A stretch of DNA of 64,000 nucleotides, from positions 229,075 through 293,074 of the forward strand of contig NZ_QJJS01000003.1 in assembly GCF_003201595.1 (NCBI RefSeq), written 5' to 3'. A program made the translations under genes and the position numbers. Source of the DNA: Sphaerotilus hippei. GTDB lineage: Bacteria; Pseudomonadota; Gammaproteobacteria; Burkholderiales; Burkholderiaceae_C. This document shows positions 630 to 19,135 of the stretch, piece by piece. Position 1 is the first letter of the stretch. Every line of letters starts with the position of its first letter. Below the pieces are notes generated by a model. The model was not told where the DNA came from and did not search any database. It was given only the letters and a program-made list of their open reading frames with translations.

Positions 630-1682
<1,053 letters not shown>

Positions 1683-1689
1683 CCGCCGA

Positions 1690-3711
1690 TTATCCCGTCC
1701 GCTGCAGCCAGCTCTGCACCACCGCGACCAGCTGTTCACGCCGCTCGCGGCGGGTGAAGGTGTGGTCGGCGTCGGTGATGTGCTGGATCTCGAGCCGGCC
1801 GAGCCGCTCGAGCGCACGCACCCGCGAGCCGGCCTGCGCGCGCAGCAGGGCCTCGCCCGGGTCGCCGACCGAGAAGACGAAGCGCAGCCGGATGTGGGCG
1901 GTGGCGATCGCCTCGAGCCGGCGCCCCAGGTCACGCGAGGAGGTCAGCCCGACGCGGCGCCCGGCGTCGCGCAGCAGGCCGCCGGTGGCCTGGCCCATCT
2001 GGCGGCCCAGCACCCGCAGCGGATTGAGCAGGTTGACCTCACCCTGCAGCAGGCGTCGCCACAGCGCTCCGGACCGCCAGAGGCTGCGGTAGCGCTGCAT
2101 CTCGCCGGCGGCCTGGTGGTCCGACAGGCCGCTGCCCGGCTGCCAGCGGTGGGCATCGCGGAACACCAGCGGGTTGATCGCCAGCACGCCGCTGACCGCG
2201 GGCAGCGAGGCCCCGCGCGGATGCACGACCGCATGGGTCCAGCCCGACAGCAGCGCGTGGTAGGCGCCGGAGCACAGGCCGACCAGCTCGACCCGATGCC
2301 CGCCGGTGCGCTGGCGCAGGAAATCGACCGCCGAGCGGATCTGCTCGGAGGCCCGTGCCATGTAGACCACCTGCTGGGGCGAGCCGGGCAAGGGCGCGCT
2401 CTCGCCCAGCCCGGCCAGGTCGATGCGCAGCACCGTGTGGCCCTGGCGGGCCAGCCGCCGCGCCAGCAGCACGTTCAGGCGCGACGGCCCGGTGTGGCGG
2501 GTGGCCCCGGCGTTGAGCAGCAGCACCGCCTGGGGCTGGTGCGCCTTGTGCATCGCGGCCCAGTCCTTCGGTCGTGAGTCGACCACCGGGTGGTCAAACG
2601 GTTCGCTGACGACACCAAACAGCACGTGGGCACCGTACTGCAGTCGCACCGCCCGCTCGATGACCTCGCCCATGATGACGGGCTGGGCCTCGCGGGTCAG
2701 CGACAGGTCGGCCGCCATCGGAGGCACACGCCGCGCCGGGTCGCGGGGGGGCGTGCGGCCAGCCTTCCGGCTGCGCTCGCGCGCGGTGCAGCACAGGATC
2801 GACAGGCGCTGCAGCCACTGCACGCTGGCCCGGCTCCACAGCGCCGGGAACTGGCTCTGGTGCGGGTCCTGCATCATCTCCACGTAACCGGGCAGGCGCA
2901 GGTGGTCGACCTGGACCCCGGCCTGCCGCAGCGAGTCGGCCCAGGCGCCGACGCCCTGCGGATCGTCGAGGTCGTTGCGCTCGAGCACCAGCCAGTGACC
3001 GACCTTGGTGTCGCGCTCGCGCCGCAGATCGGTGCGCGACAGCAAGGTGGCGGCATCGGCCGACAGCAGCAGCCCGCCTGCCTCGAAATGCGAGCTGGCC
3101 GACGGATCGGCCAGGCCGGCGTCCCCGGCCGCGGCCAGCAGGCGCAGCTCGCGCAGGTAGTTGCGGCCCGACAGCACCGGCATCCAGGTGACGACCGCCA
3201 GCACGTCGTCGCGTTGCGCCGCCGCCTGCACCGCCAGCAGCGCGCCGGCACGCAGGCCCATCAGCACCACGCGCTCGGTGCCGGCGAGGTCGCACAGCCC
3301 GTCGGCGGCCCGGTGCACGCTGCGGGCCCAGCGGCCCAGGGTGTCGGGATCGAACTCGTCCCCACCCGAATCGCCGCAGCCCGGGTAGTCGAAGCGCAGC
3401 GTCGGGATGCCGGCCTCGGCCAGCTGGGTGGCCAGCACGCGCAGGCTGGCGTGGCTGCATTCCTCCTCGCGACCGAGCGCGTTGCAGATCAGCACGCCGA
3501 ACGGTGGCTCGTCGATGTCGGCACGGGCCGACGGATGCCACCAGCCGCTGATGCGCTCCTGCCCGAAGCCGTCCTGAGGCCCCAGGCACACCGGCCCGGG
3601 CTGGGTCGCGCCCGGGCCTTCATCGTGGCCGTCGAGCGTGGGATGGATGAAGTCCAGCAGGCTGTCCGAAGGATCTTCGTGCTGCCAGACCACGTCCGGA
3701 TCGTGGGTCAT
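1690..3711 (-). CDS. Tandem alpha/beta hydrolase (two S33-like domains) in the carrier-protein cluster
   Basis: A 673-residue protein made of two alpha/beta-hydrolase domains, about residues 65-300 and 345-673. Both resemble the serine aminopeptidase/exosortase-associated hydrolase group. The nucleophile elbows are not canonical: domain 1 has GLRAG at 152-156, with Arg154 where serine is expected, and domain 2 has GLCSG at 478-482, with Cys480. Domain 2 keeps a late DADHTF histidine motif. The ATG at 3711 overlaps the stop of the upstream GH2 gene (ATGA) and follows a strong AAGGGGGG ribosome site, indicating translational coupling. No signal peptide is seen, so it is probably cytoplasmic. 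A thioesterase or acyltransferase releasing a carrier-bound product is an inference only. Confidence 0.75.
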   Translation of the reverse strand: MTHDPDVVWQHEDPSDSLLDFIHPTLDGHDEGPGATQPGPVCLGPQDGFGQERISGWWHPSARADIDEPPFGVLICNALGREEECSHASLRVLATQLAEAGIPTLRFDYPGCGDSGGDEFDPDTLGRWARSVHRAADGLCDLAGTERVVLMGLRAGALLAVQAAAQRDDVLAVVTWMPVLSGRNYLRELRLLAAAGDAGLADPSASSHFEAGGLLLSADAATLLSRTDLRRERDTKVGHWLVLERNDLDDPQGVGAWADSLRQAGVQVDHLRLPGYVEMMQDPHQSQFPALWSRASVQWLQRLSILCCTARERSRKAGRTPPRDPARRVPPMAADLSLTREAQPVIMGEVIERAVRLQYGAHVLFGVVSEPFDHPVVDSRPKDWAAMHKAHQPQAVLLLNAGATRHTGPSRLNVLLARRLARQGHTVLRIDLAGLGESAPLPGSPQQVVYMARASEQIRSAVDFLRQRTGGHRVELVGLCSGAYHALLSGWTHAVVHPRGASLPAVSGVLAINPLVFRDAHRWQPGSGLSDHQAAGEMQRYRSLWRSGALWRRLLQGEVNLLNPLRVLGRQMGQATGGLLRDAGRRVGLTSSRDLGRRLEAIATAHIRLRFVFSVGDPGEALLRAQAGSRVRALERLGRLEIQHITDADHTFTRRERREQLVAVVQSWLQRTG

Positions 3712-6368
3712 GTGCCCCCCTTGATGACGACAGGGCCGCTCAGGCCGGGCGCCAGCGCACAGCCCCGCAGCGGCGGGATGCGCTTCGAAGGCGCCAGGTC
3801 GATCGCGCGCAGCCGCACCGCACGCGTCTCGCCGGGCGCCAGATGGAAAAATTCGTCGTCGGCCACCCAGCCCGGCACGTCGAAATGGACCGCCGGACAC
3901 AAGGTCTCGGCCCGCAGCGTCACCTCGGCCACGCCATGGCCGAGCGCCTGCGCGTCGGCCTGCAGCTGCGCGGCTTCCCGGCCCGGCCGCAGCAGCCCGC
4001 CCGGGAAGTGCCAGTGTTCGGAGAGGGTCCGGCCGTCGGCGCCGAGCAGCCGGGCGCTCACCGCCTCATGCCCGCGGGGGCCGAAGCGGTGGGCCCAGGT
4101 CAGGTCGATCCAGCGGTCCAGGCTGGCGGCCACCGGGATCGCTGCGTGACCATGGGCCGCAAGCTCCAGGTCGATGCCCAGCGACTCGAGCGCCGAGCGC
4201 TGGCGCCAGACGTCCAGCCGCAGCCGCGCCTGCAGCGGCTGCGGCCCTTCATTGATCACATGGGCGACCAGTCCGCTGTGGCCTTCGTCGGCCAGCAGCA
4301 CGGCCTGCGGCTGCAGCACCCGGCGCAGCGCATGGCAGACCGACTTCGGCAGGCCGCGGTCATCGAGCAGGCCCCAGCCGGCGCCCGGGCGCAGGTCGCG
4401 CAGCCACCACACCAGCGCGCCGCGGCAGGCGCTGCCTGGCAGGCGCCATTCGGCCATCGCCGCGGCCATGACCTCGGCCGTCGTGATGCGCGACAGCATC
4501 AGGTAGCGGTCGTGGTCGCTGTAGCGCAGCGTGCGGGCCGACTCGCCCGACAGCAGCTCGAGGTAATGGTCCCGCACGTCGTCGAAGTCCCAGCCGGCGC
4601 CCAGGTCGCGGGGTGAGCCTTCCTTCCAGGCGGGATGGGTCACGCGCACCCCGGTGCCCCCGCGCAGGCGCGACAGCGTCGCCGCCGGCGGCACGTTGGC
4701 GAATGCCAGGCACTCGGTGGCAAAACGGGGCGCCAGCCGGCGAGCATCCTCCAGCGGACGCAGGTAGGCCCCGACCGCGTAGGCGCTGGTCGTGCCCGAA
4801 TCGGGGGCGTGGGGAAAGGCGCCGCCATGGGCGCTCGAGGGCCAGTACGGCGTGCCGGGCAGCACCTCGCCGACCAGCGCCGGCAGGGTCTCGTGGAACA
4901 GCGCGGGCTCCCAGTCGGCGCGGGGCGCACCCCACATCGCCGCCTGCTGGCCGACCTCCGAATTGCCGCAGACCAGCACCACGCAGGGGTGGGACTGCCA
5001 GTGGCCCAGCTGCTGGCGCGCCTCGGTCTCGACGCTGCGCCGCCAGGCCTCGTCGTCGTGCGGGAAATCCATGTTCGCGAACATGAACTCCTGCCAGACC
5101 ATCAGCCCGGCCCGGTCGCAGGCGGCGTGGAAGGACGCCTCCTCGTAGACCATCGTGCCGGCCACCCGCACCATGTTCATGCCGGTGGCGCAGACCTGCG
5201 CCACCGCCGCCTCATGCTGGTCGGGCGTGGCCCGCAGGCCGACGACATCGAGCGGCGTCCAGCAGGCGCCGCGGCAGAAGACCGGCTGCCCGTTGATGCG
5301 CACGCGGAAATCGCCGCCGTCGGTGTCCACCTCCACGCGGCGGAAACCGATGCAGCCCAGGTCGGTGAACGTGACCTGCATGCCGTCGTCGAGTCGCAGC
5401 GTCGCCCGGTAGAGCGCCGGCTCGCCGTGGGTGTGAGGCCACCACGGATCGACCACCGGCAGCCGCAGCCGGGTGCGCCAGCACGCGCGGCCCGCCTCGG
5501 GTTGCAGCAGCACGCGGGCCACCGGATCCTCCTCGACGAGGGTGTGGCGCTCGCGCGTCAGCAGCAGCTCCACCACCGGGGGCGGAGCGGCACGCAGGTC
5601 CGCGCCGCCGGCCTGCAGCGGCACCTCGATGTCCAGCCGACCTTCGGCACCGTCCAGCCAGGCCTGCAGCCGGGCCGGGCCGACCTGCCAGCCGGGCGAG
5701 GCGCCCGGCAGCACCAGCCGCACGTCCCGCCAGGCGCCGACCGGCGCGGCCGGGGGTGACCAGCCGGGCGTGCGCCCGAGCACGCTCGTGCGCCACCAGC
5801 GCAGCTGCTGGTGCTCGATCATCGGGGCACGCCAGCGCGGCCGCGGCCGGCGCTGCTGCAGCGCCGCGTCCAGCGAACGGGCGACGATCACCAGCCGATG
5901 CCGACCCGGGGTCAGCCCGTCCAGCGGCACGGCGTGGGCGACGAACATGTTGCGGCTGTCGAGCAGTCGCCGCCCGTCGAGCCAGACCTCGGCCAGCGTG
6001 GCCAGGCCGTCGAGCTCGAGCCGCGCCCCCCCGGCCCCCGCGAGCTCGTCGGCCCGCAGGAACAGGTCGAGCGCCATCCACCAGTCGGCGGCGTCCAGCG
6101 CATTGCCCAGCGCCGCGCCGGCCACAGGGGCCGCCGTCATGCGCTGCGCGACCACGCTCCAGTCGGCGCCGGCCGGGGCCAGCCCGCGCAGCATGGCCGC
6201 CACCGTGCCCAGGCGATCGACGGCCTGCCAGCCGGTGGCCGGCAGCTCGTCCGGGCCGGCCCACTGCCCGGGCGCCGAGGCGATCAGGCGCCAGGGCGAA
6301 GGCTCGCCGTGCTCGTCGACCGAGCCCGGCATCAGGGAAGGCGCCCGCAGCGCCGATGGCTCGCTCAC
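3708..6368 (-). CDS. Glycoside hydrolase family 2, beta-mannosidase-like protein
   Basis: An 886-residue protein with the GH2 domain order: an N-terminal jelly-roll (about 70-220), an immunoglobulin-like domain, then a TIM barrel (about 350-640). The motif FCRGACWTPLD starts the barrel. The expected acid/base lies in VCGNSE (Glu471) and the likely nucleophile in RFATECLAF (Glu552). The first motif differs from the usual GNNE. There is no signal peptide, which is unusual for a polysaccharide-degrading enzyme but fits a biosynthetic or glycoside-processing role inside the cell. The start is GTG at 6368, 11 bases after the carrier-protein stop, and the 3' end overlaps the hydrolase start by four bases. 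The substrate is unknown. Confidence 0.78.
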   Translation of the reverse strand: MSEPSALRAPSLMPGSVDEHGEPSPWRLIASAPGQWAGPDELPATGWQAVDRLGTVAAMLRGLAPAGADWSVVAQRMTAAPVAGAALGNALDAADWWMALDLFLRADELAGAGGARLELDGLATLAEVWLDGRRLLDSRNMFVAHAVPLDGLTPGRHRLVIVARSLDAALQQRRPRPRWRAPMIEHQQLRWWRTSVLGRTPGWSPPAAPVGAWRDVRLVLPGASPGWQVGPARLQAWLDGAEGRLDIEVPLQAGGADLRAAPPPVVELLLTRERHTLVEEDPVARVLLQPEAGRACWRTRLRLPVVDPWWPHTHGEPALYRATLRLDDGMQVTFTDLGCIGFRRVEVDTDGGDFRVRINGQPVFCRGACWTPLDVVGLRATPDQHEAAVAQVCATGMNMVRVAGTMVYEEASFHAACDRAGLMVWQEFMFANMDFPHDDEAWRRSVETEARQQLGHWQSHPCVVLVCGNSEVGQQAAMWGAPRADWEPALFHETLPALVGEVLPGTPYWPSSAHGGAFPHAPDSGTTSAYAVGAYLRPLEDARRLAPRFATECLAFANVPPAATLSRLRGGTGVRVTHPAWKEGSPRDLGAGWDFDDVRDHYLELLSGESARTLRYSDHDRYLMLSRITTAEVMAAAMAEWRLPGSACRGALVWWLRDLRPGAGWGLLDDRGLPKSVCHALRRVLQPQAVLLADEGHSGLVAHVINEGPQPLQARLRLDVWRQRSALESLGIDLELAAHGHAAIPVAASLDRWIDLTWAHRFGPRGHEAVSARLLGADGRTLSEHWHFPGGLLRPGREAAQLQADAQALGHGVAEVTLRAETLCPAVHFDVPGWVADDEFFHLAPGETRAVRLRAIDLAPSKRIPPLRGCALAPGLSGPVVIKGGT

Positions 6369-6379
6369 CCGCAGATCCG

Positions 6380-6646
6380 TCAGGCCGCCTGCAGTTCGAG
6401 CACGGCGCCACGGATGGCGGCGATGCTGGCGAACACCGCCCGGTTGAGCATGCTGTCCGGGAACTCGAGGTCAAAACGGCCCTCGAGGGCCAGCATCACG
6501 TTGACGCTCGCGTGCGAGCTCATGCCGGCCTGGTAGAGATCGGCGTCGGCGTCGAGCTCGAGCGCGTCCACGCTCAGGCGCGCGTGGGCCTTGAGCACCT
6601 CGCGGATGTCGGCGTCGATCGGGGTGTGGTCCTGGACCTGGGTCAT
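6380..6646 (-). CDS. Acyl carrier protein (putative aminoacyl carrier)
   Basis: An 88-residue acidic four-helix carrier protein. The phosphopantetheine attachment site is read as GMSSH, with Ser44 aligned to the serine of the usual G-x-D-S-L motif; the preceding aspartate is replaced by serine. It differs from the housekeeping AcpP, which is not in this window. It lies between an AcpS-type transferase (ATGA overlap with its stop) and the GH2 gene, so it is co-expressed with both. With a SerRS-like amino acid:[carrier protein] ligase across the divergent promoter, the most likely cargo is an amino acid thioester, not a fatty acyl chain. That cargo is inferred from context. Confidence 0.85.
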   Translation of the reverse strand: MTQVQDHTPIDADIREVLKAHARLSVDALELDADADLYQAGMSSHASVNVMLALEGRFDLEFPDSMLNRAVFASIAAIRGAVLELQAA

Positions 6647-7158
6647 CGTGTCGTGCTCTTGAAAAGGGAATGGGAAGGATCGGGGCAACACAGCAGTGTC
6701 ACGCAGGCCAGCGCGAACGGGCCGTCGTGACTGAGGCTGAGCGAGCAGCTGTACACGCCCAGCGCACGCGCACGCTGCTGCGCGTTGTCATGCAGAGTCA
6801 ATATCGGCTGTCCGAGCGCATCCCTGACCACCTCGATGGAGGTCCAGGACACCCCCAGATGGGTGAGCCCGAGCGCCTTGATCGCCGCCTCCTTGGCCGC
6901 GAAACGGGCGGCCAGCCGGGCCGCCTGCAGATCGACATCCGGTGTGCTCAGGGCATAGTCGATCTCCTGCGGCGTGTAGACCCGGCGCAGGTAACGTTCG
7001 CGATTTCCCCCCAAGGCCTGGGCAATGTCGGCCACTCCGGCCAGATCCACGCCGGTGCGCAGCACGGGCAGCAGCAGCTGACGGCGCGGCACACCGGCAG
7101 TCGCGGGCGCTCGGGGCCGGACGGTGGCACGTGGCCACAGTGGTCGAAAACGTTGCAT
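6643..7158 (-). CDS. AcpS-type 4'-phosphopantetheinyl transferase
   Basis: Moves 4'-phosphopantetheine from coenzyme A to a carrier-protein serine, producing the holo form. Both AcpS hallmarks are present: the metal-binding TGVDLAGV (about 35-42, the family's GxDxxxx) and ARFAAKEAAIKALG (from residue 84). The 171 residues exceed the usual 120-130 because of an Arg/Pro-rich N-terminal extension of about 30 residues. A later start is therefore possible, though none is clearly better. The stop overlaps the carrier-protein start (ATGA). The coupling suggests a dedicated enzyme for the adjacent carrier protein rather than the housekeeping AcpS, which normally sits with rnc/era/pdxJ. Confidence 0.85.
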   Translation of the reverse strand: MQRFRPLWPRATVRPRAPATAGVPRRQLLLPVLRTGVDLAGVADIAQALGGNRERYLRRVYTPQEIDYALSTPDVDLQAARLAARFAAKEAAIKALGLTHLGVSWTSIEVVRDALGQPILTLHDNAQQRARALGVYSCSLSLSHDGPFALACVTLLCCPDPSHSLFKSTTR

Positions 7159-7367
7159 CGGGTTGATCTGGACAGGAGTTTGGTTCCGGCTCTGCCGTTA
7201 TTATTACAAAGCGTTACTTCAGCAGTCGATTGTCTCGTCAACTTGGACCGATTCGGTGTCCGCACCGCATTTTCAGGCCTTCATTGCTCGCTTCAACTGC
7301 CGAAGGAAGTGTCATTGCATGTTCTGCATGCCGCCCCGTCACCCCCTTTGCACGAGCGATCGCCCGC
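7159..7367. promoter_or_regulatory. Divergent promoter region of the carrier-protein cluster
   Basis: A 209-base gap between the leftward AcpS operon and the rightward acyl-CoA dehydrogenase operon. The middle part (about 7195-7245) is clearly more AT-rich than its surroundings, with TTATTATTACAAAGCG at its left end, as expected of back-to-back promoters. I could not fix exact -35/-10 boxes or a convincing operator. Confidence 0.5.
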
Positions 7368-8546
7368 ATGGACACCCACAGCCGCCCCCACGATTTCCAG
7401 CTGATCCTTGAATCGGCCCGCCGCATCGCCGCCGACATCTGCGCGCCCCACGCAGCCGACGTCGACGCCCGTGCGCGCTTTCCGCAGGAAAGCGTGGAGG
7501 CGTTCCGGCGCCACGGCCTGCTGTCGGCCGCGGTGCCGGCCAGCCACGGCGGCCCGGGCTGCACGATGCGTCAGCTCGGGCAGCTGTGCGCGATCATCGC
7601 CGGGGCCTGCGGCTCCAGCGGCATGGTGCTGGCCATGCACTACAGCCAGCTGGCCTGCCTGGTCCGCCACGGTATCGGTGCGCCGTTCTTCGACACCTAC
7701 CTGCGCGAACTGGTGCAGCAGCAGTACCTGCTGGCCTCGATCACCTCGGAGGTCGGCACCTTCGGCGACACCCGCTCCAGCCTCTGCGCGGTCGAGCGCG
7801 ACGGCCAGCGCTTCACGCTGAACAAGGAGGCCACCACCGGCTCCTACTGCGCCCACGCCGACGCCATCCTGGTGACCTGCCGCCGCGACGCCGACGCCCC
7901 GGCGAGCGACCAGGTGCTGGTGCTCGTCACCCCCGGCGACTACAGCCTGACCCAGACCACCACCTGGGACACGCTGGGCATGCGCGGCACCTGCAGCCCC
8001 GGCTTCCGGCTCGAGTCCAGCGCCTCGGACGTGCAGATCCTGCCCGGCAGCTTCGCCGACAGCGCCTCGCAGAGCATGGTGCCGTACTCGCACATCCTCT
8101 GGTCGGCCCTGTGGACGGGCATCGCCACCGACGCGCTGTCCAAGGCCGCCGGTTGCGTGCGGGCGGCCGCCCGCAAGAACCCCGGCGAGGTGCCGGCCAC
8201 CGCGCGGCCGCTGGCCACCGCGATGCAGGCCCTGCAGTCCATGCGCCACAACTGGCAGGCGGTGGCCGACGAGTTCGACGCGATCGAGGCCCGGGGGGCA
8301 CGCTCGGAGCTGCTCAAGATGGGCTGGGCGCTGAAGATGAACCACCTCAAGGTGGCCTGCTCGGAGCAGGCCCCGCAGCTGGTGCATCAGGCGCTGCAGA
8401 TCATCGGCCTGCCGGCGTTCAAGAACGACAGCCCGCTGGCGCTGGGTCGCCACTACCGCGACGCGCTGAGCGCGGCGCTGATGATCGCCAACGAGCGCAT
8501 CCGCGGCAAGAGCGCGGCGCTGCTGATGGTGCTCAAGGACGAGTGA
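7368..8546 (+). CDS. Acyl-CoA dehydrogenase-family flavoprotein of the carrier-protein cluster
   Basis: A 392-residue member of the acyl-CoA dehydrogenase fold. It has an N-terminal helical domain (to about 120, with LLSAAVPASHGGPG), a middle beta domain with the flavin/substrate loop region (ITSEVGTFGDTRSS), and a C-terminal helical bundle ending in ALMIANERIRGKSAALLM. The ATG at 7368 matches where family similarity begins; an upstream in-frame extension is not domain-like. Relatives that oxidise aminoacyl groups on carrier proteins are known, for example the prolyl-carrier-protein oxidases of pyrrole biosynthesis. The neighbouring amino acid:carrier ligase therefore makes an aminoacyl-thioester substrate plausible, as an inference. 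It is first gene of the rightward operon. Confidence 0.85.
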   Translation: MDTHSRPHDFQLILESARRIAADICAPHAADVDARARFPQESVEAFRRHGLLSAAVPASHGGPGCTMRQLGQLCAIIAGACGSSGMVLAMHYSQLACLVRHGIGAPFFDTYLRELVQQQYLLASITSEVGTFGDTRSSLCAVERDGQRFTLNKEATTGSYCAHADAILVTCRRDADAPASDQVLVLVTPGDYSLTQTTTWDTLGMRGTCSPGFRLESSASDVQILPGSFADSASQSMVPYSHILWSALWTGIATDALSKAAGCVRAAARKNPGEVPATARPLATAMQALQSMRHNWQAVADEFDAIEARGARSELLKMGWALKMNHLKVACSEQAPQLVHQALQIIGLPAFKNDSPLALGRHYRDALSAALMIANERIRGKSAALLMVLKDE

Positions 8547-8613
8547 TCCGGCACCCGCGCCGCATCGCCCCGATCGACACCGCCCCCAACGACCTGCGAG
8601 GACACCCCTGCCC

Positions 8614-9534
8614 ATGAACGACGCGCCCCGGACCTTCGACATCGAGACCTTCTACCAGTCGCTGGTCGAGCACGGCCTGATCGTGCCCACCGGCATCCGC
8701 GGCGGCTACGGCCGCAGCGCGGTGTTCGAGGACATCCTCAACCGCTTCAACGACCTCGTCAGCCGCACGGCGGCCGACGACGGCGCGCAGTGGTTCACCT
8801 TCCCGCCCATCGTGCCGCGCACGCTGATCGAGAAGGTCGGCTACATGGACAACTTCCCGCAACTCTCCGGCTCGGTGCACAGCTTCTGCGGCGACGAGGC
8901 CGTCGCCAAGGAGATCTCGCGGCGCATCCATGCCGGCGAGCGCTGGGAGGATCTGCTCGACATCACCGAGGTCATGCTGACCCCGGCGGCCTGCTATCCG
9001 GTCTACCCGATGTTCTCCGGGCTGCTGCCGCAGGGCGGTCGGCTGGTGACGGTGCTCAACTGGGTCTACCGCCACGAGCCCTCGGACGAGCCGACCCGGC
9101 TGCAGTCCTTCCGCATGCGCGAGTTCATCCGGGTGGGCACGCCCGACGAGGTGGTCGCCTGGCGCAACCAGTGGCTCGACCGTGGCCTGGCGCTGCTCGG
9201 GAGCCTGGGCCTGCCGGTGGCCAGCGACGTCGCCAGCGATCCGTTCTTCGGCCGCGGCGGGCGTTTCATGGCCGCCAGCCAGAAGGACCAGCGCCTGAAG
9301 TTCGAGATCCTCTGCCCGGTCATCTCGCAGGAGAAACCGACGGCGATCTGCTCCTTCAACTGGCACCAGGATCACTTCAGCTCGGCCTTCGGCATCCGCA
9401 GCGCCGACCAGCAGATGGCCAGCACGGCCTGCCTGGGCTTCGGGCTGGAGCGGGTGACGCTGGCGCTGCTCAAGCACCACGGCCTGGACCCGAAGACCTG
9501 GCCCGCCGAGGTGCGCGCCCAGCTGTGGGGGTGA
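8614..9534 (+). CDS. SerRS-like amino acid:[carrier protein] ligase
   Basis: A 306-residue class II aminoacyl-tRNA-synthetase catalytic core without a tRNA-binding arm. Such proteins activate a small amino acid (glycine or alanine in the characterised Bradyrhizobium enzymes) and load it on the phosphopantetheine arm of a carrier protein. Motif 2 is seen at SFRMREF and motif 3 at GFGLER (Arg280). Cys127, Glu170 and Cys273 match the three zinc ligands of this family and of methanogen-type SerRS. The length is typical. It stands between the dehydrogenase homologue and a DUF1839 gene, the usual company of this family, and faces the carrier-protein operon. The amino acid used here cannot be read from sequence. 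Confidence 0.88.
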   Translation: MNDAPRTFDIETFYQSLVEHGLIVPTGIRGGYGRSAVFEDILNRFNDLVSRTAADDGAQWFTFPPIVPRTLIEKVGYMDNFPQLSGSVHSFCGDEAVAKEISRRIHAGERWEDLLDITEVMLTPAACYPVYPMFSGLLPQGGRLVTVLNWVYRHEPSDEPTRLQSFRMREFIRVGTPDEVVAWRNQWLDRGLALLGSLGLPVASDVASDPFFGRGGRFMAASQKDQRLKFEILCPVISQEKPTAICSFNWHQDHFSSAFGIRSADQQMASTACLGFGLERVTLALLKHHGLDPKTWPAEVRAQLWG

Positions 9535-9541
9535 GGCCGGC

Positions 9542-10567
9542 ATGAGCGACCTGTCCCTGCCCTGCTCCCCCGCACCGGCGGCGGCCGCGCCGCTGTGCGT
9601 GATCCCCGGCCTCGACGGCGAGGGCCGGCCGCCTCACGAGCTGCACCGCAGCGAACGTGTCTGGGTGGAGAAGAACTGTTATGCCGACCTGTGGATCGGC
9701 CTGCTCGGTGCGCTGGGCCACGAGCCGGCCGCCTGCCTGGGCTTCACGCTGGGGATCGACTTCCTCGGTGACCAGTGGACCTTCTACAAACCTTCGCACG
9801 ACGACCTGTTCCTGCTCTACGGCATCGACGTGCAGGAGCTGACCGTCTGGCGTCCGCTGATCGAGCATGCGCGCGAGCACCTCGGCGCGGGCCGGCTGAT
9901 CGCCACCGAGGCCGATGCCTGGTGGCTGCCCGACACCGCCGGCACCGACTACCGCCGCCAGCACACCAAGACCACCGTCGTGCTCAATGCGCTCGACGAG
10001 GCCGGCGAGCGCCTGGGCTACTTCCACAACGCCGGCTACCACCAGCTCGAAGGCGAGGACTTCCGGCGGACCTTCGCGCTCGGCCCGGACGCCCCCGCCC
10101 CGCTGATGCCCTTCTTCGCCGAGATCATCGATCTGCGCCAGCGGGTCGAGCACGAGGGGCCGGCGCTGCGGCAGCTGGCCCGCGGCCTGCTGCCGAGGGC
10201 GCTGCGCCGGCGCCCGGCCGACAACCCGGTCGAGCGTTTCGCGCGGCGCTACCAGCACGACCTGCCCGGGCTGCAGCAGCGCGGACTGGCGCACTACCAC
10301 GCCTGGGCCTTCGCCGCGACCCGGCAGCTGGGCTCGGCGGCCGAGCTGGCCGCCCATCACCTGCGCTGGCTGGAGGGCGCCCAGACCGGGCCGCTGCATC
10401 AGGCCGCCGACGGCTTCCAAGAGGTCGCCACGCTGGCCAAGACCTTCATCCTGAAGGGCGCACGTGCCGTGGCCTCGGGGCGGCCGTTCGCCGATGGCGA
10501 GCTGCTCGAGCGCATGAGCGTCGCCTGGTCGGCGGCGATGCAGGCCGTCGACCACCGTCCGGCCTGA
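9542..10567 (+). CDS. DUF1839 family protein
   Basis: A 341-residue soluble protein of unknown biochemical role, recognised from its overall pattern: VEKNCYADLWIGLLGALG near residue 40, DFLGDQWTFYKPSHDDLF near 80, and KTTVVLNALDEAGERLGYFHNAGYHQL. As I recall the family, such genes travel with amino acid:[carrier protein] ligases, as here. It starts seven bases after the ligase stop, so the two are translated from one message. The conserved Cys, His and aromatic residues suggest an enzyme or a papain-like fold, but this is speculation. It has no membrane segment and no signal peptide. Confidence 0.8.
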   Translation: MSDLSLPCSPAPAAAAPLCVIPGLDGEGRPPHELHRSERVWVEKNCYADLWIGLLGALGHEPAACLGFTLGIDFLGDQWTFYKPSHDDLFLLYGIDVQELTVWRPLIEHAREHLGAGRLIATEADAWWLPDTAGTDYRRQHTKTTVVLNALDEAGERLGYFHNAGYHQLEGEDFRRTFALGPDAPAPLMPFFAEIIDLRQRVEHEGPALRQLARGLLPRALRRRPADNPVERFARRYQHDLPGLQQRGLAHYHAWAFAATRQLGSAAELAAHHLRWLEGAQTGPLHQAADGFQEVATLAKTFILKGARAVASGRPFADGELLERMSVAWSAAMQAVDHRPA

Positions 10568-14668: not shown

Positions 14669-15691
14669 TCAGGCGGGCGCCATGGCCTGCACTTCCGGTG
14701 GACTGAGGAGGCGGTCGGCGATCAGCTCGCCGGCCTCGATGTGGGCACTGCCCAGAAAGGTGCGCTCATCCGGGCCATACACGCGCACATGTGCGGCATC
14801 GGGCAACGAGACAAGACGGCGCATGCCGGACAGGAAACGCGCGGCCTCGTCGGCGCGCAGGGACACGGTGGGCCAGTCGGCCAGCAGCACGTCGACCGGC
14901 AGCAGCAGCGCGGCACGCTGCTCCTCGCTCATGGCCTCGAGGGCCGCGAGCGTGGTCGAGCCGGCCAGCGTCAGCGGGCCGCTGCAGATGCGCCGCAGCG
15001 CCGACAGGTGGGCGCCACAGCCGAGCGCCTGGCCGATGTCATCGGCCAGGGTGCGGATGTAGGTTCCCTTGCTGCAGTGCACGTCGATCACCAGGCGCTC
15101 ATCCTGCCAGGAGACGATGTCGATCGTGTGCAGGGTGACGCGGCGGGCGACCCGTTCGATGGTCTGGCCGGCACGGGCGTACTCGTAGAGCGCCTTGCCC
15201 TGGTGCTTCAGGGCCGAATGCATCGGCGGCATCTGGTCGATCGGGCCGGTGTAGGCCGCGCAGACCCGCTCGATGTCGGCCCGGGTGCAGGTGACCGGAC
15301 GCTCTTCGGTGACCGGGGTCTCCGCATCGGCGCTGGCCGTGCGCTGGCCCAGCCGCAGCGTCGCGCGATAACCCTTGTCGGCCTCCAGGCTGACCTGGGA
15401 AAACTTGGTCGCCGCGCCGAAGCACAGCGGCAGCAGGCCGGTGGCGAGCGGGTCGAGCGTGCCGGTGTGACCGGCCTTCTCGGCGCGCAGCAGCCACTTG
15501 GCCTTCTGCAGCGCATCGTTGCTGGACAGCCCGATCGGCTTGTCCAGCAGCAGCACCCCGTGCAGCGCACGGCGCACGATGCGCACGCGCGGCGCACGCG
15601 CCTCGCCGCGGCGAGCGCTGCGGGGCGTGTCCTGGGCGGTCGGCTCCGTGTCGGTCACGACAGGGGCGCCGGAAAGCTCGACTAGGCTCAT
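14669..15691 (-). CDS. truB: tRNA pseudouridine(55) synthase TruB
   Basis: Makes pseudouridine 55 in the T-loop of tRNAs. The motif HGVLLLDKPIGLSSNDALQ starts the fold, and the catalytic aspartate lies in HTGTLDPLATGLLP. Motifs II and III (CSKGTYIRTLADDIG) and the C-terminal PUA-like part are present. The 340 residues include an N-terminal polar extension of about 38 residues before the conserved core, longer than in Escherichia coli. It is translated just after rbfA (12-base gap), as in most Burkholderiales infB operons. Confidence 0.96.
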   Translation of the reverse strand: MSLVELSGAPVVTDTEPTAQDTPRSARRGEARAPRVRIVRRALHGVLLLDKPIGLSSNDALQKAKWLLRAEKAGHTGTLDPLATGLLPLCFGAATKFSQVSLEADKGYRATLRLGQRTASADAETPVTEERPVTCTRADIERVCAAYTGPIDQMPPMHSALKHQGKALYEYARAGQTIERVARRVTLHTIDIVSWQDERLVIDVHCSKGTYIRTLADDIGQALGCGAHLSALRRICSGPLTLAGSTTLAALEAMSEEQRAALLLPVDVLLADWPTVSLRADEAARFLSGMRRLVSLPDAAHVRVYGPDERTFLGSAHIEAGELIADRLLSPPEVQAMAPA

Positions 15692-15703
15692 GGATGAATG
15701 CGG

Positions 15704-16075
15704 CTATTCGTCGGAATCGAGCGCACGCGTGGCGTTGGCCCGGGAGATCAGCGCGGAGAGTTCCAGCGCCTTTTCGGTGGTCTTGTCGAAGCGGAAATGC
15801 AGCGTCGGCACGGTGTGGATCTGCAGGCGCTTGAACAGGCTGTTGCGCAGGAAACCCGCGGCCTCGTTCAGTCCGATCTCGCACTCGACCGGCTCGCCGA
15901 CCAGCACCGAGAAGTGGATCGTGGCGTGGGCGTAGTCGGGCGTGACGTTGACGGAATTGAGCGTGACCATGCCCACGCGCGGATCCTTCAGCTCACGGAT
16001 GAGCTCGGCCACGTCGCGCTGGATCTGATCGGCGACGCGGAACTGGCGGTTCGGCGTGGAACGCTTGTGTCGCAT
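15704..16075 (-). CDS. rbfA: 30S ribosome-binding factor RbfA
   Basis: A small KH-fold assembly factor that binds the maturing 30S subunit and 16S rRNA. The 123 residues show the family start ([17 protein letters not shown]), the central [21 protein letters not shown] and the ending helix [12 protein letters not shown]. It lies between infB and truB in the standard order. The gap to infB holds two hairpins described separately, so its expression may be partly uncoupled from infB. Confidence 0.96.
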
Positions 16076-16097
16076 GGATGACCTCGAACAAACAAAG

Positions 16098-16150
16098 TGG
16101 CCCCGACACGGGTCGGGGCCAGCGCAAACCGGTGCGGCCGAGGCCGCACC
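16098..16150 (-). terminator. Hairpin pair between infB and rbfA
   Basis: Two stem-loops stand in the 84-base gap. One is TGGCCCCGAC/GTCGGGGCCA (16098-16121, 10-bp stem); on the minus strand it is followed by CTTTGTTTGTT. The other is GGTGCGGCC/GGCCGCACC (16131-16150). The first resembles a weak terminator and could attenuate read-through from infB into rbfA-truB-typA. Complete termination is unlikely given the operon order. Confidence 0.5.
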
Positions 16151-16159
16151 CGACTCGCA

Positions 16160-19135
16160 TCACAGGGTGCGAGCCACTTCCTTGATCTCGAAGAACTCCA
16201 GCTGGTCGCCTTCGGCGATGTCGGTGTAGTTCTTGAGCTTGATGCCGCACTCGAAGCCTTCCTTGACTTCCTTGACATCGTCCTTGAGTCGGCGGATCGA
16301 ATCGACTTCGCCGGTGTAGATGACGATGTTCTCGCGCAGCAGGCGGAACTTGCAGTTGCGGCGCACCAGACCCGAGGTGACCATCGAGCCGGCGATGGTG
16401 CCGATCTTGGTCGCCACGAACACGGTGCGGATCTCCGCGGTGCCCAGGGCCTCTTCGCGCTGCTCCGGAGCCAGCATGCCCGACATCGCCAGACGGATCT
16501 CGTCGACCGCGTCGTAGATGATGTTGTAGTAGCGCAGGTCGACACCGTTGTGCTCGGCCAGCTTGCGCGCGCCGGCATCGGCACGCGTGTTGAAGCCGAT
16601 GATGACCGCCTTCGAAGCCAGCGCCAGGTTGACGTCGGATTCGCTGATGCCACCCACCGCGGCGTGCACGATCTGCACCTTGACCTCGTCGGTCGACAGC
16701 TTGAGCAGCGAGGTCGCGAGCGCTTCCTGCGAACCCTGCACGTCGGCCTTGATGATCAGCGGCAGCGTCTGGGCAGCGCCCTGGCCCATGCCCTCGAAGA
16801 TGTTCTCGAGGTTGGCGGCCTGGCGCTTGTTCAGCGTCACTTCGCGGTACTTGCCCTGACGGAAGGTGGCGATCTCGCGGGCACGACGCTCGTCGGACAG
16901 CACCATGAACTCGTCGCCGGCCGAAGGCACCTCGGTGAGGCCCTGGATCTCGACCGGGATGGACGGTCCGGCTTCCTGGCAAGGCTTGCCGTTCTCGTCG
17001 AGCATGGCGCGCACGCGGCCGTAGCTCTGGCCCGCCAGCACGGCGTCGCCGCGCTTGAGGGTGCCGGACTGGATCAGCACGGTGGCCACCGGGCCGCGGC
17101 CCTTGTCCAGGCGCGCTTCGATCACCAGGCCCTTGGCCAGCGCGACCACCGGAGCCTTCAGCTCCAGCACTTCGGCCTGCAGCAGCACCTGTTCCAGCAG
17201 CTCGTCGATGCCCTGGCCGGTCTTGGCCGACACCAGGCAGAACGGCGACTCACCACCGAACTCTTCCGGGATCACGCCTTCGGCGACCAGCTCGCTCTTG
17301 ACGCGCTCGAGGTTCGAATCGGGCTTGTCGATCTTGTTGATCGCCACCACGATCGGCACGCCGGCCGCCTTGGCGTGGTGGATGGCTTCCTTGGTCTGCG
17401 GCATCACGCCGTCGTCGGCGGCCACCACCAGGATGACGATGTCGGTCGCCTTCGCACCACGGGCACGCATGGCGGTGAACGCCTCGTGGCCCGGGGTGTC
17501 GAGGAAAGTGATCACGCCACGCTCGGTCTCCACATGGTAGGCACCGATGTGCTGCGTGATGCCGCCGGCTTCGCCCGCGGCCACGCGGGCCGTGCGCACG
17601 TAGTCCAGCAGCGAGGTCTTGCCGTGGTCGACGTGACCCATGACGGTGACGACCGGGGGACGAGCCACCGACTCGCCAGCGGTCTCGGCATGTTCTTCCT
17701 CGAGGAAGGCGTCCGGATCGTCCAGCTTGGCCGGGAAGGCCTTGTGACCCATCTCTTCCACGAGGATCATCGCGGTTTCCTGGTCCAGCTGCTGGTTGAT
17801 GGTGACCATCTGACCCAGCTTCATCAACTGCTTGATGACTTCCGAACCCTTGACCGACATCTTGTGGGCCAGATCGGCCACCGAGATGGTCTCGGGAACG
17901 TGGACTTCGTAGATCTGGGCCTCGACGGGCGCGACGAAGGTCGACGCGCTCTCGCCACGCGAGTCGCCACGGCGACCACCACGGCCACCCGGCGACTTCC
18001 AGCCACCACGGCCGGCATCCGGACGACCCTTGGTGGCGGCGGCGCGCTTCTTGGCGGCGTCATCGGCCCAGCTGGACGACAGCTTCTCGGACTTGACGGC
18101 CTTCTTGTCACCCGGCTTGGCCGCGGTGGTGGCGGCAGGCGCCGCACCCGGCGTGCCCGGCTTCGGACGATGGATCGTGCCCTTGATGCCGTCCTTGCCG
18201 GCCTGAGCACCCGCAGCGGCGGCGGGGGCCACCGGCTTGGGTTCTTCAGGCTTCTTGGCGATCATCACCTTGCTCTTGCGCGCCATCATGTCGCGGATGG
18301 CGGCGGCTTCCGCCTCGGCGGCCTTGCGGCGGCGCTCGAGGTCGCTCTGACGCTGCGCATCGGTGGCCGCCGCATCGGCGGCCTTCACCACACGTACGGC
18401 CGCACCGGTGCCGGCGGGACCGCCTGCGGTACTGACGATGCCGGGCGTGGCCGGGCGAGCGGCTGCCGTCGGAGTCGGGGCCGCGCTGCGCGGGGGAACG
18501 GCCACGGGGGTGGCCGGAGCGGCTGCTGCCGGTTTCTGTTGTTGTTGAGCGGTGACCACTGCTGCTGCTGCAAGAGCTTCCTGTTCGCGGACTGCTGCGG
18601 CTTGCGCTTCGGCGGCCGCACGGGCAGCCGCTTCGCGAGCGACACGTTCGGCTTCTTCGCGGGCGCGGGCTTCACGGGCCTGCTGTTCCTGCTCTTCAGC
18701 CACGCGGCGCCGTTCGGCAGCAGCTTCTTCTTCAAGGCGCAGCGCTTGCGCCTCACGTTCGGCTTCTTCCTCGCGCCGCTGGAGCTCGAGGTCCTCGGCG
18801 TCGGTTTCAGCCACTTCGGCGCCACCGGCGGCCCCATCACGCTTGACGAAGACACGCTTCTTGCGGACCTCGACCTGGATGGTGCGGGCCTTGCCCGAGG
18901 CGTCAGCCTGTTTGATCTCGCTGGTCGATTTTTTCGTCAGCGTGATCTTCTTGCGGTCGGCACTGGTGGTGCCGTGCGCATTGCGCAGGTAGGCGAGCAG
19001 GCGTTCCTTGTCGGTCTCGGTGAGCGCGTCACCGGCCGAAGCCTTGTTCACACCTGCGTGTTGGAGTTGCTCGAGCAGTGTCGATGCCGGGCGATTGAGC
19101 TCGGCAGCGAACTGAGCAACGGTGGTCACAGCCAT
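16160..19135 (-). CDS. infB: Translation initiation factor IF-2
   Basis: A GTPase that places initiator tRNA on the 30S subunit. The 991-residue protein has an IF2_N module at the start ([18 protein letters not shown]). A long low-complexity Ala/Glu/Arg-rich and then Ala/Pro/Thr-rich linker follows (about 120-380), with a second IF2_N-like segment ([20 protein letters not shown]). Then come the G domain ([31 protein letters not shown]) and domains II to IV ending KEVARTL. The linker is long, as is common in Betaproteobacteria. It follows nusA with a 50-base gap. Confidence 0.97.

Follow-up and report, generated by a model that had tools for sequence, protein, structure and literature searches.

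A divergent gene set predicted to build an aminoacylated amine

In the stretch of Sphaerotilus hippei DNA analysed here (64,000 nucleotides of contig NZ_QJJS01000003.1, G000:C3:229075-293074; hereafter the window), seven genes at 1690-10567 form two divergent groups. We propose that they encode a cytosolic route to an aminoacylated amine, with the DUF1839 protein as amide synthase; we put the probability of this reading at roughly 0.55. The leftward group encodes an AcpS-type phosphopantetheinyl transferase, a small carrier protein (CP), a protein resembling glycoside hydrolase family 2 (GH2) and a tandem alpha/beta hydrolase, and the rightward group an acyl-CoA-dehydrogenase-like flavoprotein, a ligase resembling seryl-tRNA synthetase (SerRS) and DUF1839. 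All seven lie where an initial annotation of the sequence had placed them, as two divergent operons. That annotation had left DUF1839 without a role, and a fold match now marks it as the likely bond-forming enzyme.

Fold and residue pattern of DUF1839

The DUF1839 gene (9542-10567, plus strand) encodes a protein scoring 330.5 bits against PF08893 (cut-off 22.5), with a predicted model of mean pLDDT 90.6 and papain-like fold. When this model was compared with the PDB using Foldseek, ranks 1-19 were all occupied by AziU3/U2, CtaG and CcbD (E 1.6e-6 to 1.9e-3), while rank 20 had an E-value of 0.11 and later matches were weaker. The candidate catalytic residues are C46, T144/T145 and H162. Cys46 opens the first core helix of the model (46-57), and the alignment retains Cys46 in 35/37, Thr144 in 35/37 and His162 in 37/37 sequences. 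The exceptions, lacking both Cys and Thr, are the operon copies of two loci, L062 and L071; L071 carries a second DUF1839 with the full pattern 4.8 kb further on (15232-16197), and the L062 genome (G255) has a second DUF1839 gene on another contig.

The accessible part of PMC10318531 assigns DUF1839 to the papain-like proteins, gives its pattern as Cys-(Thr/Ser)-His and proposes, from gene context, a role in glycan processing. CcbD and LmbD, according to the available text of PMC12945683, first accept proline from CP on a Cys and then transfer it to a thiooctose amino group, within the lincosamide pathway outlined in the portion available of PMC4351081. Because its predicted fold resembles that of CcbD, which couples a CP-bound amino acid with an amino sugar, DUF1839 is most likely an amide-forming enzyme that acts on aminoacyl-CP. 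Besides the fold, the catalytic Cys is shared with CcbD/LmbD, and the neighbouring genes suggest an aminoacyl-CP partner here as well. The fold is also shared with CtaG (closthioamide) and AziU3/U2 (azinomycin), which fill Foldseek ranks 1-11 and whose pathways, unlike the window set, are of nonribosomal peptide synthetase (NRPS) type. No link between DUF1839 and CcbD or CtaG was found in a literature search at listing level.

Conservation of the gene set

Loci were collected by a ligase search, partly biased toward near relatives of the window, in which 40 of 47 match rows (besides the window's own and G041, G133 and G137) were covered as regions. Locus counts refer to 59 of the 75 ligase loci, each flanked on either side by 5.5 kb or more; 16 shorter-sided loci were excluded, and L001, L028-L057 and L106-L110 were left out. 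DUF1839 is present in 33 of the 59, and all 33 contain CP, 32 the flavoprotein, 32 GH2, 24 the hydrolase and 13 an AcpS-type gene (Burkholderiales and L023), while GH2 was found in none of the 26 ligase loci without DUF1839. With flavoprotein and GH2 so regularly beside the ligase, and the hydrolase less so, the idea of a single dedicated pathway, put forward in the initial annotation, survives for the DUF1839 class. Chance neighbours are ruled out by the recurrence of the gene set together.

A family search in a 398-genome sample of the phylum detected the ligase family in 44 genomes, 28 of them over cut-off, and DUF1839 in 16, all among these 28; 16 of the 18 DUF1839 genes adjoin the ligase. 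The gene set is patchy, since the ligase was found in 0/11 other genomes of the window's family in this sample. It recurs in Burkholderiales, Alphaproteobacteria and one Myxococcales metagenome-assembled genome (MAG). Scanning genome contigs for the ligase yielded 26 loci: 25 belong to Burkholderiales and one (L023) to the Myxococcales MAG, where the order is changed to AcpS-CP-flavoprotein-ligase-DUF1839-GH2 in one direction with the hydrolase opposite. Six of nine annotated plasmid regions have the order acyl carrier protein (ACP), acyl-CoA dehydrogenase, ligase, DUF1839, GH2, and the hydrolase follows directly in three of these six (Azospirillum argentinense, Azospirillum B510 and Mycetohabitans). 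Pairwise distances co-vary among CP, flavoprotein, ligase, DUF1839 and GH2 (r 0.81-0.92, 38 loci), and those of the hydrolase co-vary with the others (r 0.71-0.85, 26 loci); in each case 0/500 label permutations were as high, the permutations ignoring shared species history.

Several results weigh against DUF1839 as a CcbD-like amide synthase and against one pathway for the whole set. The PDB matches reach moderate TM-scores (0.40-0.55, query-normalised), and sequence likeness to CcbD/LmbD is undetectable, phmmer having given no PDB match for DUF1839 up to E 10. The residue pattern is Cys-Thr-His, not the Cys-His-Glu triad of the CcbD/LmbD type, and the lincosamide pathways, unlike the window set, charge CP through an adenylation (A) domain. 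The best Foldseek match, AziU3/U2, is presumably aziridine-forming, so a shared fold is no guarantee of amide formation. At the locus level, the flavoprotein is missing from L003 and GH2 from L024, and 9/33 DUF1839 loci have no hydrolase in the stretch covered; these three genes are thus dispensable or located elsewhere in such genomes.

Carrier protein, transferase and ligase

The ligase (8614-9534, plus strand; NF005479/PRK07080) scores 407.5 bits against a curated cut-off of 357 and consists of the catalytic domain only (306 aa). Its residues C127 (74/74), E170 (75/75) and C273 (75/75), conserved in the alignment across loci, align with what we take to be the metal-site residues C131, E176 and C279 of the Bradyrhizobium ligase Bll0957. 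CP (6380-6646, minus strand) also exceeds its curated cut-off (NF005480, 101.7 bits vs 72), and its phosphopantetheine-bearing Ser44, in a GMSS motif, is kept in 55/55 sequences. The AcpS-type enzyme (6643-7092, with an alternative start at 7158; minus strand) passes both TIGR00556 (74.3 vs 45.35) and TIGR00516 (61.7 vs 59.8) and has the family's D / KE-K motif (D16 in 24/24; K67, E68 and K72 in 25/25). The window's genome has three PP-binding matches and two AcpS-type matches, and because one of each lies inside the cluster, CP and transferase look dedicated. From these parts, all with their key residues, we infer that the ligase loads the neighbouring CP with an amino acid, and the aminoacyl-CP intermediate of the initial annotation stands.

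The same annotation had pointed to Bradyrhizobium as the source of characterised ligases. The published biochemistry of amino acid:[carrier protein] ligases reportedly concerns Bll0957 (PDB 3mey, 4h2w and others), so that ligase activity is said to be in print already. The window ligase belongs to the same NCBIfam family over cut-off and retains the aligned metal-site residues, but is only 44% identical to Bll0957 over 277 residues, whereas the ligases of L072-L077, in loci without DUF1839 and GH2, are 95-96% identical to it. The published work therefore applies to this other class, and Bll0957 was rejected as a direct guide to the window locus.

The flavoprotein lacks both textbook catalytic glutamates

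The flavoprotein (7368-8546, plus strand) matches the N- and C-terminal acyl-CoA dehydrogenase domains of Pfam over cut-off, with the middle domain under it. In 59/59 flavoproteins Ile or Val stands eight residues past the Asp of the RD motif; on another helix, the position ten residues ahead of a conserved Gly is occupied by Ser, Ala, Thr or Cys and in no copy by Glu. We take these two positions to be those of the catalytic base in medium-chain acyl-CoA dehydrogenase (MCAD, 376) and isovaleryl-CoA dehydrogenase (IVD, 254); the canonical Glu is found at neither in any of the 59 copies. His242, directly after the second Glu-less position, is invariant. The fold search returned dehydrogenases and monooxygenases interleaved at TM about 0.8. 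In the profile search the best match was 7p98, a dehydrogenase with Thr instead of Glu at the C-terminal position; the nitrososynthases DnmZ and 3m9v stood a few ranks below (1.7e-22 and 4.6e-21), and prolyl-ACP dehydrogenase was far lower (4e-14). Neither search separates dehydrogenase from monooxygenase, and since 7p98 also has no Glu at the first of the two positions, loss of the Glu pair is by itself no proof of oxygenation. The flavoprotein gene was not found near the ligases of L003 and L104.

GH2-like protein, tandem hydrolase and operon layout

The GH2-like protein (3708-6368, minus strand; GTG start, with a later ATG at 6332) is assigned from a partial Pfam match, the N-terminal domain being over cut-off, and its nearest solved relatives are the beta-mannosidases 5n6u (3.7e-48) and 2je8 (7.7e-37). 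Aligned to 2je8, both catalytic Glu positions, presumably acid/base and nucleophile, are kept in 39/39 copies, while the Trp of the RxWGG motif is replaced by Ala, Gly, Pro or Ser in 39/39. Given that the Glu pair is kept and the Trp lost, the enzyme is probably active with a changed substrate.

In the tandem hydrolase (1690-3711, minus strand), the N-half has no nucleophile (GLRAG), whereas the C-half has a Cys nucleophile (GLCSG) and a DH pair. The first nucleophile is replaced by Arg or Gly in 32/32 copies, and the second is Cys in all 31 copies reaching that position, a pattern that would fit acyl transfer or thioester work. The C-half resembles exosortase-A-associated hydrolase 1 (TIGR03100) and the N-half hydrolase 2 (TIGR03101), but in the window the halves are fused in one protein, which stays under both cut-offs (116.6 vs 168 and 86.0 vs 203); in the window's own genome TIGR03100 is likewise under its cut-off.

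It is very unlikely, in our judgement, that GH2 and the hydrolase are passengers of a pathway that consists of CP, flavoprotein and ligase of the Bradyrhizobium type together with DUF1839. Such an arrangement would agree with the loci that have CP, flavoprotein and ligase and none of DUF1839, GH2 and hydrolase (L072-L077 and L079-L082; L083 and L084 also lack CP). However, GH2 tracks DUF1839 across the loci (32/33 with, 0/26 without), its distances co-vary with those of the other genes (r 0.82-0.90) and its Glu pair is intact. For the hydrolase, present in 24/33 DUF1839 loci, the objection is weaker.

ATGA overlaps had been described through the whole leftward operon; they occur at two of its three junctions, AcpS/CP and GH2/hydrolase, while CP and GH2 are separated by an 11-base gap, with the GTG start of GH2. 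The intergenic region at 7093-7367 presumably holds the promoters of both operons. The gene dusA (window 630-1690) lies on the hydrolase strand, its start 7-8 bases past the hydrolase stop, and transcription of the leftward operon may continue into it.

Locus classes and a possible exchange of the acceptor genes

The 59 loci fall into clear classes. Class 1, with DUF1839 and GH2, comprises the 33 loci described above. Class 2 (11/59: L072-L077 and L080-L084) is marked by flavoprotein and ligase, usually accompanied by CP, in the absence of DUF1839 and GH2; L079, short on one side, is a twelfth such locus. A further 10/59 are solitary ligase-like genes with low scores, and five more are L005, L019, L021, L103 and L104. 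In the Ramlibacter MAGs (L005, L009, L019 and L021) an NRPS-type protein, consisting of an adenylation domain with luciferase-like insert and a carrier domain, adjoins the ligase, and three of these proteins contain a formyltransferase domain. DUF1839 was not found in these four loci (L009 is cut on the left and may have a GH2 gene beyond that edge). Polyketide synthase (PKS) domains occur in L005 and L019, the next genes of L009 and L021 lying outside the scan. This apparent exchange points to a donor produced by CP, AcpS, flavoprotein, ligase and hydrolase, with DUF1839 and GH2 serving one kind of acceptor.

Other genes follow the class-2 ligases: Abhydrolase_3 and an AMP-binding protein in L080, a class-IV aminotransferase in L082, and a Cys/Met-metabolism pyridoxal phosphate enzyme with a homoserine O-succinyltransferase-like protein in L083. 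These could be further acceptor or product branches. On a Priestia megaterium plasmid (L103, NZ_CP085444.1, 7866-21689), the order is acpS-ACP-flavoprotein-ligase-DMT transporter-ATP-grasp-hydrolase-AlaP-Alr, and upstream of it lie a D-Ala-D-Ala ligase gene and a ComX/kinase/regulator set. Its gene content suggests an alanine antimetabolite cluster that carries spare copies of the target enzymes. A plasmid of Streptomyces sp. NBC_00557 (L110, 9431-14252) carries a 3-hydroxyacyl-CoA dehydrogenase, a carrier protein, an acyl-CoA dehydrogenase, a SerRS-like ligase homologue annotated as hypothetical and an acyltransferase, an aminomalonyl-ACP layout in which a SerRS-like loader occupies the place of the adenylation enzyme. 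In L060, a protein encoded near the cluster (6939-7991) is of the radical SAM type and matches lysine-2,3-aminomutase at its C-terminus; it is possibly EpmB beside the genes of elongation factor P.

The window set itself was rejected as an aminomalonyl-ACP system. It shares with zwittermicin ZmaG-J a CP and an acyl-CoA-dehydrogenase-like enzyme, and the zwittermicin side has a serine-loading enzyme, as far as the available text of PMC6395733 goes, but 1690-10567 holds no 3-hydroxyacyl-CoA dehydrogenase, unlike L110.

A small amino-acid antimetabolite or peptide-like product, for which the CP-bound amino acid would be oxidised and then released or joined to another amino acid, with GH2 acting on a glycosylated storage or protected form, seems to us quite unlikely for the DUF1839 loci. 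Related donor genes do adjoin NRPS/PKS genes in Ramlibacter and Streptomyces; the Priestia set brings ATP-grasp, transporter, Alr and AlaP genes beside the upstream D-Ala-D-Ala ligase, and CtaG and AziU3/U2, with the DUF1839 fold, presumably act in antibiotic pathways. Yet the DUF1839 loci have no NRPS, ATP-grasp, exporter or resistance gene in common, and the PP-binding proteins of the window's genome number only three.

Earlier predictions and the proposed pathway

The initial annotation had missed that the accessible part of PMC2922099, from 2010, already prints a similar model together with a neighbourhood of SerRS paralogue, ACP, redox enzyme, glycosidase and an uncharacterised conserved protein, Atu2574, predicted to make an amide with a sugar amino group. 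From the description given there, Atu2574 appears to be DUF1839, and if it is, the fold match lends independent support to that guess. The window differs from the printed neighbourhood, as far as this is described in the part available, in adding an AcpS-type enzyme and the tandem hydrolase and in its two divergent operons. The neighbourhood and the amide-on-sugar idea (PMC2922099) and the papain-like assignment (PMC10318531) are therefore already in print, on the accessible parts of both. New are the fold match to CcbD, CtaG and AziU3, the division of the loci into classes, which places Bll0957 in class 2, the absence of the Glu pair, the NRPS exchange, the co-occurrence counts and the residue states seen in GH2 and in the hydrolase. 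A literature search of titles and abstract starts found no phenotype for this cluster.

The 2010 prediction, as seen in the available portion of PMC2922099, amounts to aminoacylation of a cell-surface glycan or lipid-linked precursor, DUF1839 adding an (oxygenated) amino acid to a polysaccharide amino sugar and GH2 editing the glycan. Glycan genes do stand beside L023 (flippase-like and GT2), L060 (a glycosyltransferase), L063 (Polysacc_synt_3) and L003 (polysaccharide deacetylase), and in Tsukamurella (L104) a ligase of the same family lies inside an exopolysaccharide cluster. Nevertheless, we consider this explanation unlikely. Beyond the core, no gene family occurs in more than 14 of 43 DUF1839 loci, some of them cut by contig ends; the commonest is an ABC-ATPase-like protein, judged by eye (14/43), the next reaches 8/43, and no glycosyltransferase or export gene is common to them. 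Several annotated plasmid loci (Azospirillum B510, Caballeronia and Rhizobium) have no surrounding glycan cluster. In a crude, simple test no window protein had a hydrophobic N-terminus above threshold, so the steps look cytosolic. The lack of such N-termini and of a widely common non-core family favours a cytosolic product over a surface glycan.

In the cytosolic pathway that we prefer, the AcpS-type enzyme, judging by family and motifs, would turn CP into holo-CP, and the SerRS-like ligase, by analogy to Bll0957, would activate a small amino acid and load it onto CP; glycine or alanine, named in the initial annotation, would be candidates only, as the present results point to neither. The flavoprotein may then alter the bound amino acid, for which that annotation had assumed oxidation, either through oxygenation or through a dehydrogenation that relies on an unusual base. 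DUF1839 would take the aminoacyl group onto Cys46 and pass it to an amine as an amide, in a CcbD-like reaction. The acceptor amine would most likely be an amino sugar or an amino-sugar-bearing glycoside; what indicates a sugar is the GH2 gene and the likeness to CcbD, these two only. GH2 may trim the acceptor or product or transfer its sugar, and the Cys-type hydrolase could proofread, release or move the acyl group. A more specific and doubtful extension is a new class of intracellular aminoacyl-amino-sugars, in which an oxidised (imino, dehydro or N-hydroxy) small amino acid would be amide-linked by DUF1839 to a cytosolic glycoside, with a mycothiol-like architecture reached through CP, GH2 acting on the acceptor, and a self-contained, exporterless operon across Alphaproteobacteria, Betaproteobacteria and Myxococcota.

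DUF1839 can now be named as a candidate for the bond-forming step of these gene clusters, with CcbD as a mechanistic analogue of solved structure, and the loci sort into clear classes. If the acceptor is an amino sugar, the cluster would add to lincosamide and mycothiol chemistry a second way of making aminoacyl sugars, one fed by a SerRS-like ligase.

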